A stretch of DNA of 50,947 nucleotides from a virus. Position 1 is the stretch's first letter. Each line of letters opens with the position of its first letter. The stretch lies in IMG/VR virus record IMGVR_UViG_3300042904_000032, positions 1-50,947 of that record, one strand, 5' to 3'. The notes under the pieces are model-generated. The model was not told where the DNA came from and ran no database searches. It saw only the letters and a list, made by a program, of their open reading frames with translations. Shown here one piece after another: positions 2,663 to 29,906 of this stretch. The position numbers and the translations under genes were made by a program.

Positions 2663-2819
2663 CTTCTAAATCTTCAATAGCCTCATGATAAACTACCATC
2701 GCTGCATCATACCATTCCCAGTTATCAACGCCGCCGTCTTCTAAGGCGGCTAATTTTTCTAGTCGGCGTTGCATATCCCGATAAGCTGAGAGCTTAATAG
2801 TAACTAATTCTTCTGTCAT
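2655..2819 (-). CDS. Small acidic protein (54 aa), unknown
   Basis: The ATG at 2819 overlaps the TGA of the phosphoesterase gene (ATGA), and the frame runs 54 codons to a TGA inside the start region of the DUF3310 gene. The protein begins MTEELVTIKLSAYRDM, has a helical RRLEKLAALE segment and an acidic tail (EAIEDLEDE). It resembles the many short helical phage proteins of unknown function. Evidence is the coupled start and stop and uninterrupted packing. Confidence 0.72.
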   Translation of the reverse strand: MTEELVTIKLSAYRDMQRRLEKLAALEDGGVDNWEWYDAAMVVYHEAIEDLEDE

Positions 2820-3580
2820 AAATATTTCTTCTTTAGAAAGTCTAAGCTAATAAACATAGGATCAAACTCACCATCATTAACTTCATGAAGCATGAGAATT
2901 CCTCGCCAATGTTTATTACCTTGAGGCCCCAAATAATCTTCGTCATGCTCGTAACATGAGCCAGCAATGATCGATGTGAGTCGTTTTCCATCTGCACGAT
3001 GGCCGGTGGCTATTTGAAGGCCTTGTTGATGCCCTGCCACACAAGACATGTGCTTCTTTTGAAGCTGTGCTTGAGCCGTTGTACAAGGGCGTCCCAAAAG
3101 ACCGGTAACAAAATAATGGGCGTAGCAAATCCCATCAATAACAACAGGCCGGAGAAAAGGATATACCTCCCAACCGAAAGACTCATATCCAAGATCTGCC
3201 ACACTAATCGTACCATCTAGTTTTGGGTCTCCTTCGATGACCTTGTTGATTCTGTTTTCGTGGTTACCGAGCGTAAGGATCTTACGTGGATTGTATCTTT
3301 CACGATGTCCAATACGTGCTCTACGGTTGTATGCTTCGAGAGGGCCCAACAGCGTGGCCATAGCCTCATGTGTTGCTTCAATGTCAGCTTTGTACCTTCG
3401 ACCTTCAAAACTCTTTTTACCCACATCATAACTTGATAACGATGGGAGATCGGCAAAGTCACCGATGTTGATGAGTGTGTCAGGTTTCTTAGCAACAATA
3501 TAATTACCTATGGCTTCTAGAAATTTAAAATCATCACCGGGTCTGATCTGACAGTCTGGTAGAATTAAATGAGTAGATAT
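2816..3580 (-). CDS. Metallophosphoesterase, calcineurin-like; apparent ATA start
   Basis: The 254-aa protein carries the phage calcineurin-like phosphoesterase motifs in order: LPDCQIRPG (metal motif I, residues 8-16), NIGDFADLPSLSSYD (motif II), LTLGNHENRI (motif III, GNHE), and GH motifs near VAGHQQGL and the C-terminal third. Such enzymes hydrolyse phosphomonoesters or diesters; the phage substrate is unknown. The frame has no ATG, GTG or TTG before GTG at 3424, which would remove motifs I and II. An AGAGGA lies 8 nt before ATA at 3580, and translation from there gives the family's usual N-terminus. The ATA start is therefore inferred, and a sequence error is the main alternative. Confidence 0.85.
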   Translation of the reverse strand: MSTHLILPDCQIRPGDDFKFLEAIGNYIVAKKPDTLINIGDFADLPSLSSYDVGKKSFEGRRYKADIEATHEAMATLLGPLEAYNRRARIGHRERYNPRKILTLGNHENRINKVIEGDPKLDGTISVADLGYESFGWEVYPFLRPVVIDGICYAHYFVTGLLGRPCTTAQAQLQKKHMSCVAGHQQGLQIATGHRADGKRLTSIIAGSCYEHDEDYLGPQGNKHWRGILMLHEVNDGEFDPMFISLDFLKKKYL

Positions 3581-3618
3581 TTTATGTTTCCTCTCAATTT
3601 CTGGACGTAAGGAAGAAA

Positions 3619-3804
3619 TTAGTCATCGAATTCTTCATCTTCATCATCACCAAAAGCAGCTACACCAAAATCAGAAGCAATTCCCATAGCCACGGCCATA
3701 TTCAATCCAAACTGCATTAAGGCTTTTAGCTCCGCTTCACCCAACACAACCACAGCATTTACTTGACCCTCTTCATCATATAGATTTAATTCATTAATTT
3801 TTAT
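3619..3804 (-). CDS. Small acidic-tailed protein (61 aa); apparent ATA start
   Basis: An open frame of 61 codons encodes a protein with a beta-rich start (KINELNLYDEEGQVNAVVVL), a helical middle (AELKALMQFGLNMAVAMG) and a strongly acidic tail (GDDEDEEFDD). No family is recognised. There is no ATG/GTG/TTG before an internal ATG at codon 30. An AGAGGA lies a few bases before ATA at 3804, and that ATA overlaps the TAA stop of the upstream HNH gene (ATAA), mimicking the usual ATGA overlap. ATT two codons later is an alternative start. Confidence 0.65.
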   Translation of the reverse strand: MKINELNLYDEEGQVNAVVVLGEAELKALMQFGLNMAVAMGIASDFGVAAFGDDEDEEFDD

Positions 3805-4163
3805 TTGGTGTTCCTCTTTCTTTTACTTTGTTCTTTACTAGATTTCTCATCATGACATGTGTTGCAAAGGACTTGTAGTCCCTGTTCATCACAAAATAGC
3901 CGACTAATATAATCGTCCCAGGTTGTGAAGCCTTTGTCTGGGTCCACAACAGGTTGAATATGATCGACCTCAATGTTTGTAGAAGTGTATTCCTTCTTAC
4001 AATTTACACATTGATAGTGCTGTGCTAGACGTCCAGATGCTTCGTTGATTTTCTTTTCTGTCTTAGCGGCGTTCTTTACATTGTGTTTAGGAGGCCACCT
4101 GCGAGTGCCTGCCCGTAATACACTAATGATGAAGCCTTTAATTCGAGCCTCAGTCCACTGCAA
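3801..4163 (-). CDS. HNH endonuclease (phage WTEAR...RRWPPK family)
   Basis: A 120-aa protein of a widespread phage HNH family: N-terminal WTEARIKGFIISVLRAG then RRWPPK, a zinc-ribbon-like pair CVNCKKEY, the HNH core VDHIQPVVDP, and a second pair LCNTCHDEK. Members are often found beside replication or terminase genes and act as DNA nickases or double-strand endonucleases; the role here is not known. I chose TTG at 4163 because GGGAG sits 7 nt upstream and homologues begin at this point. A longer frame exists up to 4217 but lies entirely within the exonuclease gene. Confidence 0.86.
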   Translation of the reverse strand: MQWTEARIKGFIISVLRAGTRRWPPKHNVKNAAKTEKKINEASGRLAQHYQCVNCKKEYTSTNIEVDHIQPVVDPDKGFTTWDDYISRLFCDEQGLQVLCNTCHDEKSSKEQSKRKRNTK

Positions 4164-4852: not shown

Positions 4853-4929
4853 CGTCATACCTCTCTTTCATCCAAATCAACATTTTGGTTATGTTTTATT
4901 AAATTATCTGTCAAAGTCAATTAAACCAA

Positions 4930-5286
4930 TCAAAGAATTAGTTCCTTTGTATCCCCATCATCATCAGAATAGAACGCCCGAACCACACCAACAGATCGTA
5001 GAAGGCTTCGGCAACGAACACAAGGCATAGCACAGCCGATATTCCCACCTTTAGTAAAACGGGTGACGTAGATGGAACTCCCGACCAAATCGGTTTGATG
5101 CCCTCGTTTAAGAAGCTTGAGAACTGCTGCTTCTTCAGCGTGCACAGTAGGTTTTCCCAGCACTTTAGAATAACGAATTTCATTATAACCTGTGGACAAT
5201 ACTCGGTTACCTTTAGTAATTACAGCACCCAGCCTATGTCGCATAAAGGTGCTTTTCTTTGCCTGCTTTTCAGCTAGACGAATCAT
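4930..5286 (-). CDS. Deoxycytidylate/cytidine deaminase-like zinc enzyme
   Basis: A 118-aa protein with the cytidine/deoxycytidylate deaminase zinc site: H49-A-E51 (VHAEEAA) and P88-C89-x-x-C92 (MPCVRC). The catalytic glutamate is E51. The short length and RHRLGAVI, GYNEIRY segments fit phage dCMP-deaminase-like proteins, which feed dUMP to thymidylate synthesis. No thymidylate synthase was seen here, so host enzyme use is implied. It starts at ATG 5286; the upstream gene ends at 5317. An 80-nt gap separates it from the exonuclease. Confidence 0.85.
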   Translation of the reverse strand: MIRLAEKQAKKSTFMRHRLGAVITKGNRVLSTGYNEIRYSKVLGKPTVHAEEAAVLKLLKRGHQTDLVGSSIYVTRFTKGGNIGCAMPCVRCRSLLRSVGVVRAFYSDDDGDTKELIL

Positions 5287-25902: not shown

Positions 25903-27396
25903 ATGCTTACAGCACAAGTTATTCAGGGGTTTAGTGCCTCATTATTGCAGCGGAATTTTGATGGGGCAGTTGAAAGCCCCTCTTGTCATTTGGAATGGTG
26001 GGAACTATTCACTAGCAAATACCCACAAGTGGCCATCTCAGCTCCCCGTGGACATGCTAAAAGCACCGCCTGCACTCTGACATATTTACTGGCATGTATG
26101 GTGTTTCGGGAACGCAGTTATGCTTTACTAATCTCGGACACTGTAAGCCAAGCATCTCAGTTCCTTAATGATATTAAGCAAGAACTAACCACAAACGAGA
26201 GACTTATGTCTCTCTTTAAAATTAAAGGTCTTCTTAAAGATACGGAAGACGATGTTATTGTAGAATGCACGGATGGTTACCAGTTCCGAATCACTGCTAG
26301 AGGCTCTGAGCAAAAGCTTCGTGGTTTGAAATGGAACAATAAACGTCCTGACCTTATTGTCTGTGATGATCTGGAAAATGATGAAATTGTAATGAATCCA
26401 GACAGACGAGTGAAGTTTAAGAGATGGTTTTATGGTGCATTAATTCCTTGTAAATCTGTCCACGGTATTATTAGAATTGTAGGTACTATTCTTCATGAAG
26501 ATAGTTTACTTAACAATTTAATGCCTCAGGAATATGATAAGTGGACTAGAAAGAGTGCATTAAAGACTTGGAGTGAGAAGAAAGGTTCATGGATTTCTTA
26601 TAAATATCGGGCCCATAGTGACGATTTTACTTCGATCTTATGGCCTACTCGATATACGAAACAATGGTTCGTTGAAAAACGGGATGATTTCTTTGAGCGG
26701 GGCCTACCTGATGTTTATAGCCAGGAATTCTTAAATGAGCCCATCGATGAAAGCATCGCTTTTTTCAAGAAAGCTGACTTCCATCATCTTACGAAAGACG
26801 ATAAAGACCGTACCGTTAACTACTATATTACCGGCGATTTGGCTATTTCGGAGAAAGAGACGGCTGATTATTCAGTGTTTGTTATTGCTGGAGTTGATGA
26901 AAATAAACAAATCCAGATCCGAAATGTAATCAGAGAGCGTATGGATGGTAGAGAGATTGTAGATACTATTATTACTCTTCAAAAGATTTATAAGCCAGAA
27001 CTCATCGGACTGGAAGAAATGCAGGTATCTAAGGCCATTGGGCCTTTCTTACGAGAAGAAATGCATAAGACCGGTGTCTATCCTAGTATGATGATGCTAA
27101 AACATCAGGGAAAGGACAAGATGGCTAGAGCACGCTCCATTCAGGCCCGTATGCGGGCAGGAGGTGTGAAGTTTGATAAGTCCGGGGATTGGTATAGTAT
27201 TTTAGAAGATGAACTAACTAAATTTCCTCGTGCTACGAGGGATGACCAAGTAGATGCATTTGCATATTTAGGTATGATGCTAGACAGCTTGGTAGAAGCT
27301 CCCACACAGCAAGAACAGGAAGAGGAAGACTATTTAGATGAACTTAGAGAATCTGGACATGAAGCCGCAGGACGTAGCCAATACACCGGCTACTAA
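25903..27396 (+). CDS. Terminase large subunit
   Basis: A 497-aa DNA-packaging motor. ATPase: Walker A APRGHAKST (residues 47-55), Walker B DLIVCDDLE (D155, D156, E158), and the coupling motif VGTILHEDS. Nuclease (RNase H-like): ITGDLAISEKETADYS (D312), LIGLEEMQ, and the C-terminal RDDQVDAFAYLG (D447, D448, D451). Length and order are typical of podovirus terL. It cuts and pumps the concatemer into the head through the portal. The start is ATG 25903 after a 34-nt gap. It overlaps the portal gene by 59 nt. Confidence 0.95.
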   Translation: MLTAQVIQGFSASLLQRNFDGAVESPSCHLEWWELFTSKYPQVAISAPRGHAKSTACTLTYLLACMVFRERSYALLISDTVSQASQFLNDIKQELTTNERLMSLFKIKGLLKDTEDDVIVECTDGYQFRITARGSEQKLRGLKWNNKRPDLIVCDDLENDEIVMNPDRRVKFKRWFYGALIPCKSVHGIIRIVGTILHEDSLLNNLMPQEYDKWTRKSALKTWSEKKGSWISYKYRAHSDDFTSILWPTRYTKQWFVEKRDDFFERGLPDVYSQEFLNEPIDESIAFFKKADFHHLTKDDKDRTVNYYITGDLAISEKETADYSVFVIAGVDENKQIQIRNVIRERMDGREIVDTIITLQKIYKPELIGLEEMQVSKAIGPFLREEMHKTGVYPSMMMLKHQGKDKMARARSIQARMRAGGVKFDKSGDWYSILEDELTKFPRATRDDQVDAFAYLGMMLDSLVEAPTQQEQEEEDYLDELRESGHEAAGRSQYTGY

Positions 27397-29422
27397 TGAT
27401 ACAAGCTATCTGACTAAGAATTATGCTGAAGATCTAGACGACGACAAATTGACTGAAATCGGTCAAGCATGTAAGCGTGGGTTTGATGTTGATTTGGAAA
27501 GTCGAGAAGAGTGGGAAGACTCTTTGGAAGATTGGTTAAAGCTCGCGAAGCAAACTCGAGAGTCAAAGACCTACCCCTGGCCAGATGCTTCTAATGTTAA
27601 ATACCCGTTACTTACCACGGCCGCTATGCAATTTGCGGCCCGGGCTTATCCAAGCTTGGTACCAGCTAATGGTCAACTAGTTAAAAGTCAGGTTATCGGA
27701 AAAGACCCGGACGGGGCTAAGTATGAAAAAGGTCAGCGTATTGCTGACTACATGTCTTATCAAATCCTCCATGAAATGACAGGATGGGAAGAAGACATGG
27801 ACAAGATGTTAATGATGCTCCCCGTTGTTGGATGCATCTTTAAAAAGACTTGGTACGACAAGGGCGACGATATGGTGAAGAGTAAATTTATTCTTCCCAA
27901 GAATTTCGTTGTAAATTATTGGACTACTTGTCTTGAAGAATCAGAGCGTACAAGTGAACTAATTGATATTAGTCCTCGCCTCTTAAAAGAAAAACAGAAT
28001 TTAGGTATTTACCGAGACATTGATCTTGGTTCCCCAATGCCTTTTGATGCAGATATTAGTGGCTATACCTCAGCAGATGAGACTCTTCCATATACTCTTG
28101 TAGAGCAACACACATTCCTAGATCTTGATGATGACGGTTATCGTGAGCCCTACATCGTAACATTTGATGCTTATAACGGCACAGTGCTATCTATCTATCG
28201 GAGACACACAATTGATGATGTCATTCTCAAAGACGATGGTAAATCTGTGGCAAAGATTAAGCCAACTCAAATGTATACCAAATTTGGATTTGTTCCTAAT
28301 CCTGATGGTGGGTTCTATGATATTGGGTTTGGTACTTTACTTGGCCCACTTAATGAGTCAGTTAACACTCTAATTAATCAGCTCATTGATTCTGGCACTA
28401 TTAACAACCTTAATGGTGGCTTCATTGGTAAAGGCCTAAAAATTAAGATGGGAGATAGCACCTTCCGTCCAGGCGAATGGAAACCAGTAAATGCCACCGG
28501 CGATGATCTACGTAAGCAGATTGTTCCTCTTCCTGCGAAAGACCCCTCTTCCGTTCTTTTCCAGCTTATGGGGACTTTAATTACCAGTGGAAAAGAGCTT
28601 GCCAGTGTGGCTGAAATCTTTACTGGAAAGATGCCAGGACAGAATACTCCGGCCACAACTACAATGGCTACTGTCGAACAGGGTATGAAGGTTTTTACGG
28701 CAGTATATAAACGTATCTTCCGCTCATTAGGCGAGGAATTTAAGAAGGTATTCCAACTTAATAAAACTTATCTAGATCCAAATAAATATGTGGCTGTGTT
28801 AGATGACACAGTGGGCCCGGACGATTTTGATAACCAAAGTTATGATATTTGCCCCGGTGCTGATCCTTCAGCAATAAGTCAAAGTGAGAAGTTAATGAAG
28901 GCACAAGGTCTTCTAGAACTACTTCCTTTAATTCCTGGGATGCTTGATCCAATTAAAGTGTATTCTCGTGTATTAGAAGCACAAGAACAGCCTAATTGGC
29001 AAGAATTGTTTACTCCAGAAGTACAGAATACAGGAGCCTTACCTCCTCCTTCACCTGATCCTAAACTTATGGCCATTCAAGCGAAGGTCGAAAGTGATCA
29101 GAAGAAGACGGCTCTGGATTTACAAGCTAAGCAGATGGAAATGGAACTCGCTGGCCGAGATCGTGTTCTCCAAATGCAAATGAAACAACAAGAGCACGCG
29201 CAGAAGATGGAACATCAAGCGCAAAGTGCCCAAGTGAAGGCAGCCAGCGACATTGCTATGTCTAATGTCTATTCTGCCACAGAACGTGCTAAAGGTCAAC
29301 AGCAACTAGTGCAGAAAGACCAACAGCACCATCAGAAAATGACCCAAGTTAAGGAGAGTCAGAAATTATCTCAGAACAAGAACTCCACGAGTGGAGACAA
29401 GACAAAGTCACAAAAGAAGTAA
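27338..29422 (+). CDS. Portal protein
   Basis: A 694-aa head-tail connector of the short-tailed phage type (dodecamer in homologues). Features include the acidic N-terminus, WPDASNVKYPLLTTAAMQFAARAYP, a central NTLINQLIDSGTINNLNGG region that is characteristic of P22/phiEco32-style portals, and a Q/K-rich C-terminal coiled coil (QAKQMEMELAGRDRVLQMQM) that may extend into the head. It follows terL with a 59-nt overlap. The start could be ATG 27338 or 27359; the ribosome site favours the former. Confidence 0.9.
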   Translation: MNLENLDMKPQDVANTPATNDTSYLTKNYAEDLDDDKLTEIGQACKRGFDVDLESREEWEDSLEDWLKLAKQTRESKTYPWPDASNVKYPLLTTAAMQFAARAYPSLVPANGQLVKSQVIGKDPDGAKYEKGQRIADYMSYQILHEMTGWEEDMDKMLMMLPVVGCIFKKTWYDKGDDMVKSKFILPKNFVVNYWTTCLEESERTSELIDISPRLLKEKQNLGIYRDIDLGSPMPFDADISGYTSADETLPYTLVEQHTFLDLDDDGYREPYIVTFDAYNGTVLSIYRRHTIDDVILKDDGKSVAKIKPTQMYTKFGFVPNPDGGFYDIGFGTLLGPLNESVNTLINQLIDSGTINNLNGGFIGKGLKIKMGDSTFRPGEWKPVNATGDDLRKQIVPLPAKDPSSVLFQLMGTLITSGKELASVAEIFTGKMPGQNTPATTTMATVEQGMKVFTAVYKRIFRSLGEEFKKVFQLNKTYLDPNKYVAVLDDTVGPDDFDNQSYDICPGADPSAISQSEKLMKAQGLLELLPLIPGMLDPIKVYSRVLEAQEQPNWQELFTPEVQNTGALPPPSPDPKLMAIQAKVESDQKKTALDLQAKQMEMELAGRDRVLQMQMKQQEHAQKMEHQAQSAQVKAASDIAMSNVYSATERAKGQQQLVQKDQQHHQKMTQVKESQKLSQNKNSTSGDKTKSQKK

Positions 29423-29565
29423 AAGAGGCCCTTTTAATTGATATCCAAGAAAAACTACGAGAAGTTTTATATTGGGATAATGAAAAGCTAAAGTGGCATC
29501 AAGGATATATTCAAGCAATTAATGAAATTGTCGAGGAATATTTTCATATTAAGGAGAAACAGTGA
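29365..29565 (+). CDS. Small helical protein (66 aa); apparent ATT start
   Basis: A 66-codon frame overlaps the portal 3' end and contains no ATG, GTG or TTG at all. TTAAGGAGA, a near-perfect ribosome site, lies 7 nt before ATT 29365. The product (MISEQELHEWRQDKVTKEVK, then helices WDNEKLKWHQGYIQAINEI) resembles short helical proteins encoded in other phages near the portal. Its stop overlaps the GroES-like gene's GTG start (GTGA), so it is coupled. An ATT start is the simplest explanation. Confidence 0.68.
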   Translation: MISEQELHEWRQDKVTKEVKEALLIDIQEKLREVLYWDNEKLKWHQGYIQAINEIVEEYFHIKEKQ

Positions 29566-29906
29566 TTGAGGTAGTTGGATGTAGAATCCTAATTAAACCC
29601 TATAAGATTGAAGAAGCTGATGATGTCTTTGCTAGTGCTAAGCAGAATAAGATTATTATTCCTGAATTCACAGAACGCAAAGAACAGACTAAAATTGATC
29701 AGGGTACAATTTTAATGATGGGACCTACTTGTAATGTAGATTATGTAGGTACTGCAAAAGTAGGTGATGTGATTGCCTACGCTAAATTTGGCGGCAAGTT
29801 TATCGAAGATCCTGAAGATGGGGTAACCTATCTAGTGATTAATGATGAAGATCTTGTAGCTATTTTACACAAAAAGAAAGAGGTAGTGAATGTCGGAAGC
29901 GACTGA
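29562..29906 (+). CDS. GroES-like co-chaperonin
   Basis: A 114-aa protein with the Cpn10 fold signatures: VGCRILIKPYKIEE at the start, a loop segment (IIIPEFTERKEQTKIDQGTIL) at the mobile-loop position, and GPTCNVDYVGTAKVGDVIAYAKFGGKFI and LVINDEDLVAIL at the end. It should cap host GroEL and help fold the capsid, as T4 gp31 does (established for T4). It starts at GTG 29562 right after the 66-aa gene, in the block of head genes. Confidence 0.85.
   Translation: MIEVVGCRILIKPYKIEEADDVFASAKQNKIIIPEFTERKEQTKIDQGTILMMGPTCNVDYVGTAKVGDVIAYAKFGGKFIEDPEDGVTYLVINDEDLVAILHKKKEVVNVGSD

Follow-up and report, generated by a model that had tools for sequence, protein, structure and literature searches.

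A conserved small phage gene probably initiates at AUU or AUC within the portal reading frame

The window analysed here is the whole of a 50,947-base virus record. Between its portal and GroES-like genes lies a 66-codon frame, for which a first-pass annotation had pointed to the absence of any ATG, GTG or TTG codon (hereafter NTG) and to a strong ribosome site before an ATT; both observations were verified at 29365-29565, with zero such codons across the entire frame. The features of this region are:

27338..29422, + strand: portal gene (PHROG 1216), which shares 58 nt with the small gene in a different frame
29350-29352, + strand: TAA that interrupts the small gene's frame shortly before the ATT
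29351-29356, + strand: AAGGAG Shine-Dalgarno sequence, 8 nt 5′ of the ATT and spelled by the portal codons Lys-Glu
29365..29565, + strand: small gene, 66 codons plus TGA, with a proposed AUU start; its family is conserved between portal and GroES
29365-29367, + strand: proposed start codon ATT, followed by A (ATTA)
29392-29394, + strand: invariant Trp codon of the small gene (Trp in 216/216 homologues)
29562..29906, + strand: GroES-like gene (PF00166) with a GTG start, used as a control for ordinary initiation

The small gene lies in frame -1 relative to the portal gene, whose codon at 29366-29368 is TTA; with ATGA in place of ATTA this codon would be a stop. The sequence TTAAGGAGA at 29349-29357 ends 7 nt from the ATT; at the other end of the gene, the terminator is TGA at 29563-29565 and meets the start of the GroES-like gene at 29562.

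Direct searches with the 66-residue protein alone found zero relatives, and relatives were gathered via the portal instead: five portal scans of viral contigs and a phage collection gave 335 loci, or 336 sequences including the window piece. A copy of the window (L001) was removed before counting, as were 2 of the 336 sequences that had no portal open reading frame ending in a stop. A profile search for the small protein (E ≤ 1e-3) found 326 of the 334 portal-bearing sequences to carry it between the portal and GroES genes; of the eight in which it was missed at this threshold, two end 31 nt past the portal and one is the distant phage L085. Merging identical regions reduced the 326 sequences to 216 distinct ones, in every one of which a single Trp is invariant. 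Three additional metagenome-assembled loci from a scan of genome contigs, kept outside all counts, carry TTG (L417), ATG (L418) and an ATC candidate with no NTG before the Trp (L419).

Past the portal stop, dN/dS is about 0.14 in homologues with an AUH start (10 pairs, all below 1) and 0.15 in those with an NTG start (659 pairs, all below 1). Judged by these sequence comparisons, the small frame is a real, conserved phage gene under purifying selection; conservation in relatives, on which the first-pass annotation had made its proposal depend, extends to both the frame and its AUC/AUU start, which are kept across a large clade. Its product resembled nothing familiar: there were zero Pfam matches for three family members, no PHROGs family was matched at E ≤ 0.01 by more than 2 of 92 members, none convincingly (best E = 1.8e-4, to phrog_5541, whose function is not given there), a PDB profile search with the family reached a best E of 0.16, which is unconvincing, and Foldseek with the predicted fold gave zero matches at E ≤ 0.001. 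From 130 representatives, 95 entered one alignment (A1) and 92 another (A2); AlphaFold2, given 92 sequences, predicted three helices with a mean pLDDT of 89.5. Going by gene order, the protein may have a role in head assembly.

The missing start codon of the window is shared by much of the family. In 80 of the 216 homologues the stretch from the in-frame stop upstream to the invariant Trp contains no ATG, GTG or TTG, and all 80 have an AUH codon 5-10 nt behind a Shine-Dalgarno core (ATC in 43, ATT in 36, ATA in 1). These members are diverse: when the family is clustered at 70% protein identity, 69 of the 130 clusters are AUH. The distance from start to Trp is similar in the two classes (median 9 codons for AUH, 10 for NTG), and the Shine-Dalgarno sequence is slightly stronger at AUH than at NTG starts; mRNA structure showed no marked class difference either around the start (mean z -0.24 vs 0.15) or downstream of it (-1.02 vs -0.81; mononucleotide shuffles). 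Some NTG codon occurs in 66 of the 80 AUH frames, always downstream of the Trp; the other 14, the window among them, have none anywhere in the open frame. We infer from this pattern that the family's small gene would initiate at AUU, AUC or, more generally, AUH, with formyl-Met. The cultured Alcaligenes phage vB_Af_QDWS535 (L082, OK172329.1) has a homologue at 3313-3531, with AAAGGAG followed after 7 nt by ATC at 3325; its record carries no annotated gene in the portal-GroES gap. Annotated starts can also differ from the likelier one: the homologue at 4914-5138 of MW202785.1 (L084) is annotated with a start that lies 60 nt beyond a GTGA overlapping the portal stop, and this GTGA is the likelier start.

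Lack of an NTG start goes with overlap of the portal gene. Of the 72 loci in which the Trp precedes the portal stop, 71 have no NTG start (the exception is L245); of the other 144, only 9 have no NTG before the Trp, and in four of those nine (L018, L035, L038 and L082) the start is still inside the portal gene. In every one of the 71 overlapped loci the small frame is shifted by -1 from that of the portal. Synonymous shuffles that held the portal protein fixed, which take no account of relatedness or of the second reading frame, gave 8.0 expected loci with a Shine-Dalgarno and AUH pair against 74 of 75 observed, and 17.8 expected with a strong Shine-Dalgarno sequence against 57 of 75 observed. 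In the same shuffles the absence of NTG was expected in 75.0 loci and observed in 75 of 75; it is unsurprising near the start, since it follows from the amino-acid sequence of the portal: in a frame -1 overlap an NTG is barred, as it would put TGN (stop, Cys or Trp) into the portal gene. ATAA or ATAG at the start would likewise put a stop into the portal gene, whereas ATC and ATT fit, and the 75 overlapped loci use only ATTA (34), ATCG (23), ATCA (17) and ATCT (1); the single ATA among the 80 starts fits a locus with no portal overlap (L061). The AUH start is probably kept because a standard start would truncate the portal protein.

Relatives with standard starts show a related arrangement. 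Among the 78 NTG relatives outside the outgroup clade, 30 join the portal stop to the start codon in an exact NTGA and 63 use the same frame (-1); within the outgroup clade all three frames are used (24, 18 and 16 of 58). A fixed position of the portal stop relative to the Trp is shared by 47 of the 80 AUH loci, and in these it is a TAA within a conserved V/I/L-T/S codon pair, mostly GTAAC. With NTGA geometry, a single substitution can therefore both lengthen the portal and leave an AUC or AUU start. In the history that we propose, the ancestral small gene would have begun at an NTGA in which its start codon overlapped the portal stop; a substitution in the base common to both (from ATGA to either ATCA or ATTA) would have removed that stop, extended the portal to the next one and turned AUG into AUC or AUU, a change whose occurrence is deduced from the present-day arrangements. 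A strong ribosome site is maintained and would direct ribosomes to initiate internally, within the portal frame, and the likely outcome would be weak expression that is sensitive to IF3 and not coupled to termination of the portal.

Portal trees bear on the direction of change. FastTree, run on 210 portals with the last 110 residues removed (6 of 216 with short portal pieces being excluded), gave 5 start-state changes, and IQ-TREE on 86 representatives gave 3. When the latter (86 representatives plus L085) was rooted with a distant Pelagibacter phage, its early-diverging lineages were NTG and AUH arose within a clade with SH-aLRT 96. An NTG group of 23 rows and L238 are nested inside the AUH clade, the group with low support (3), in a branching order that differs from FastTree and under a long root branch; support at some key nodes is 3 to 63. 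The outgroups have standard starts, and AUH would have had one or a few origins, with later reversion. On the sequence evidence as a whole, we put at roughly four in five the probability that this is a conserved phage gene translated from AUU (mostly AUC/AUU in relatives) by Shine-Dalgarno-directed internal initiation within the portal gene, with a history in an NTGA overlap.

Other readings of the AUH codon were weighed against this one. Ribosomes might slip by -1 from the portal into the small frame, aided by the Shine-Dalgarno-like site, so that a portal fusion is made and AUH is read only as Ile. The frame relationship in all 71 overlapped loci is the one this needs, Shine-Dalgarno-like sites can stimulate -1 shifts (PMC4066793, which also describes tetramer and heptamer shift motifs), and A_AAA directly precedes AUH in 34 of 75 loci. 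A census of the 75 overlaps nevertheless found no conserved slippery motif: the canonical X_XXY_YYZ heptamer occurs in only 2 of the 75 shiftable regions, and 7, including that of the cultured phage, have no Z_ZZN tetramer whatever. An in-frame stop lies 0-15 nt before AUH in 38 of 75 loci, close relatives start independently at an NTG in the corresponding position, and a shift from the portal is impossible in five loci with no overlap, yet AUH stands behind a Shine-Dalgarno sequence there too. Frameshifting as the common mechanism is unsupported by the census and we consider it unlikely, although a frameshift product may be made in addition where A_AAA precedes the start. We give almost no credence to a further idea, that translation does not begin at the 5′ end of the frame and that the frame is a relic or yields a shorter product from a downstream NTG: 66 of the 80 AUH frames do hold some NTG, but the shorter product would drop the Trp found in every homologue, the window and 13 other frames offer no such codon, and the dN/dS of 0.14 and the excess of Shine-Dalgarno and AUH pairs (74/75 against 8.0) also count against it.

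The first-pass annotation had instead taken the ATT as one sign among several of relaxed start selection in the phage or its host, possibly through altered IF3 or a phage factor; such relaxation would make AUH generally usable. For two more genes in the window the best candidate start is indeed ATA, and in one relative it is CTG. The GroES-like gene, however, has a standard start in every locus with a match, all 80 AUH loci included (190 of 195 matched loci by script, the other 5 by eye from printed codons; 21 of 216 loci had no match), no IF3 domain (PF00707) was found within the window, AUH is spread over very diverse phages and tracks the portal overlap, and the ATA cases are not conserved in relatives. 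Initiation at AUU behind a strong site is supported by conservation and by the Shine-Dalgarno sequence, but general relaxation as its main cause appears very unlikely. The two further genes have no usable standard start, but their relatives mostly keep one. In homologues of 3619-3822(-) the start is ATG in 5 of 6 matched loci, the sixth being the window (75 of 81 loci had no match); for 2816-3622(-) a standard start is nearby in 76 of 81 loci, far upstream in 3 and absent in 2, the window and a locus with CTG (L338). The ATA cases are lineage-specific, and the window lineage may have some tolerance of AUH. As to the genes themselves, 3619-3822(-) is a small frame with an acidic tail and no standard start near its N terminus, whose candidate ATA (3804-3802) follows AGAGG and is merged with the upstream gene's TAA into an ATAA, again an entanglement of stop and start; 2816-3622(-) encodes a metallophosphoesterase (PHROG 221) with a candidate ATA at 3580-3578 and its first standard start 66 codons in, and its 76% identical homologue in L338 has the CTG behind AAGGAGG.

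Initiation at AUU or AUC behind a strong ribosome site has partial parallels. The start of infC, the IF3 gene, is ATT in E. coli and ATC in Streptomyces (PMC5472188); it shares a conserved non-NTG, AUH start with the small gene, but the latter starts inside another reading frame, while infC is bacterial and autoregulated by its own product. Streptomyces sigR, which was misannotated, starts at GTC in 32 of 34 species and at GTT in two, with a strong Shine-Dalgarno sequence, and its repression by IF3 has been shown (PMC5472188); the strong site and conserved near-cognate start are alike, but GTC and GTT are not AUH. The same source describes AUH starts in bacteria as weak and discriminated against by IF3, and PMC2268962 likewise describes inhibition of non-canonical starts by IF3. 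In Yersinia pestis, AUU with a ribosome site is the mutation-proven start of a small protein, RcsD-Hpt, within a longer gene (PMC10191623). That is a single case after a frameshift mutation, whereas the small gene represents a family-wide state. In IS911, orfB has an AUU start behind GGAG, in a frame -1 overlap with orfA, and the element also carries a slippery motif and makes a fusion. The AUU start in frame -1 inside an upstream gene is common to both, but the slippery motif is absent as a conserved feature in the small-gene family. Ordinary NTGA overlaps have the same -1 geometry; in the small AUH gene the shared base would have changed and the stop is gone. Searches of open-access literature for AUC/AUU-starting phage genes and for overlap-driven change of start turned up no description that we recognised as this case; a paper on phage SPP1 (PMC6316719) offers only a codon table.

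A switch from AUG to AUU is recorded for 1 of 61,358 ancestral AUG starts across 36 genome triplets (PMC5622118). Though such switches are very rare, a family across dozens of divergent phage lineages appears to live with AUC or AUU, with a visible path into that state, by loss of the stop in an NTGA overlap, and out of it again. The family would offer a natural experiment in overlap geometry dictating the choice of start codon, and represents a class of genes missed by gene finders that are bound to start codons. The cultured phage carries the gene and makes these proposals testable.

Five loci keep AUH with no portal overlap, so overlap alone does not explain it. In L061 and L074 the portal stop precedes the small-gene start, in L162 another small frame is inserted between portal and small gene, and L237 and L247 complete the set. 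The loss of overlap may be recent in these loci; one substitution would restore AUG in such overlap-free lineages, yet AUH stays, hinting at a regulatory role. We tentatively raise the possibility, which we hold to be less probable than not, that a weak, IF3-gated start has also been retained over deep divergence, beyond the portal constraint, to keep a head-assembly protein at a dose that needs to be low or timed. Between portal and small gene, L237 (4621-4980) and L247 (4932-5357) have frames that look HNH-like by eye, and in both the small gene retains ATC behind AAGGAG.
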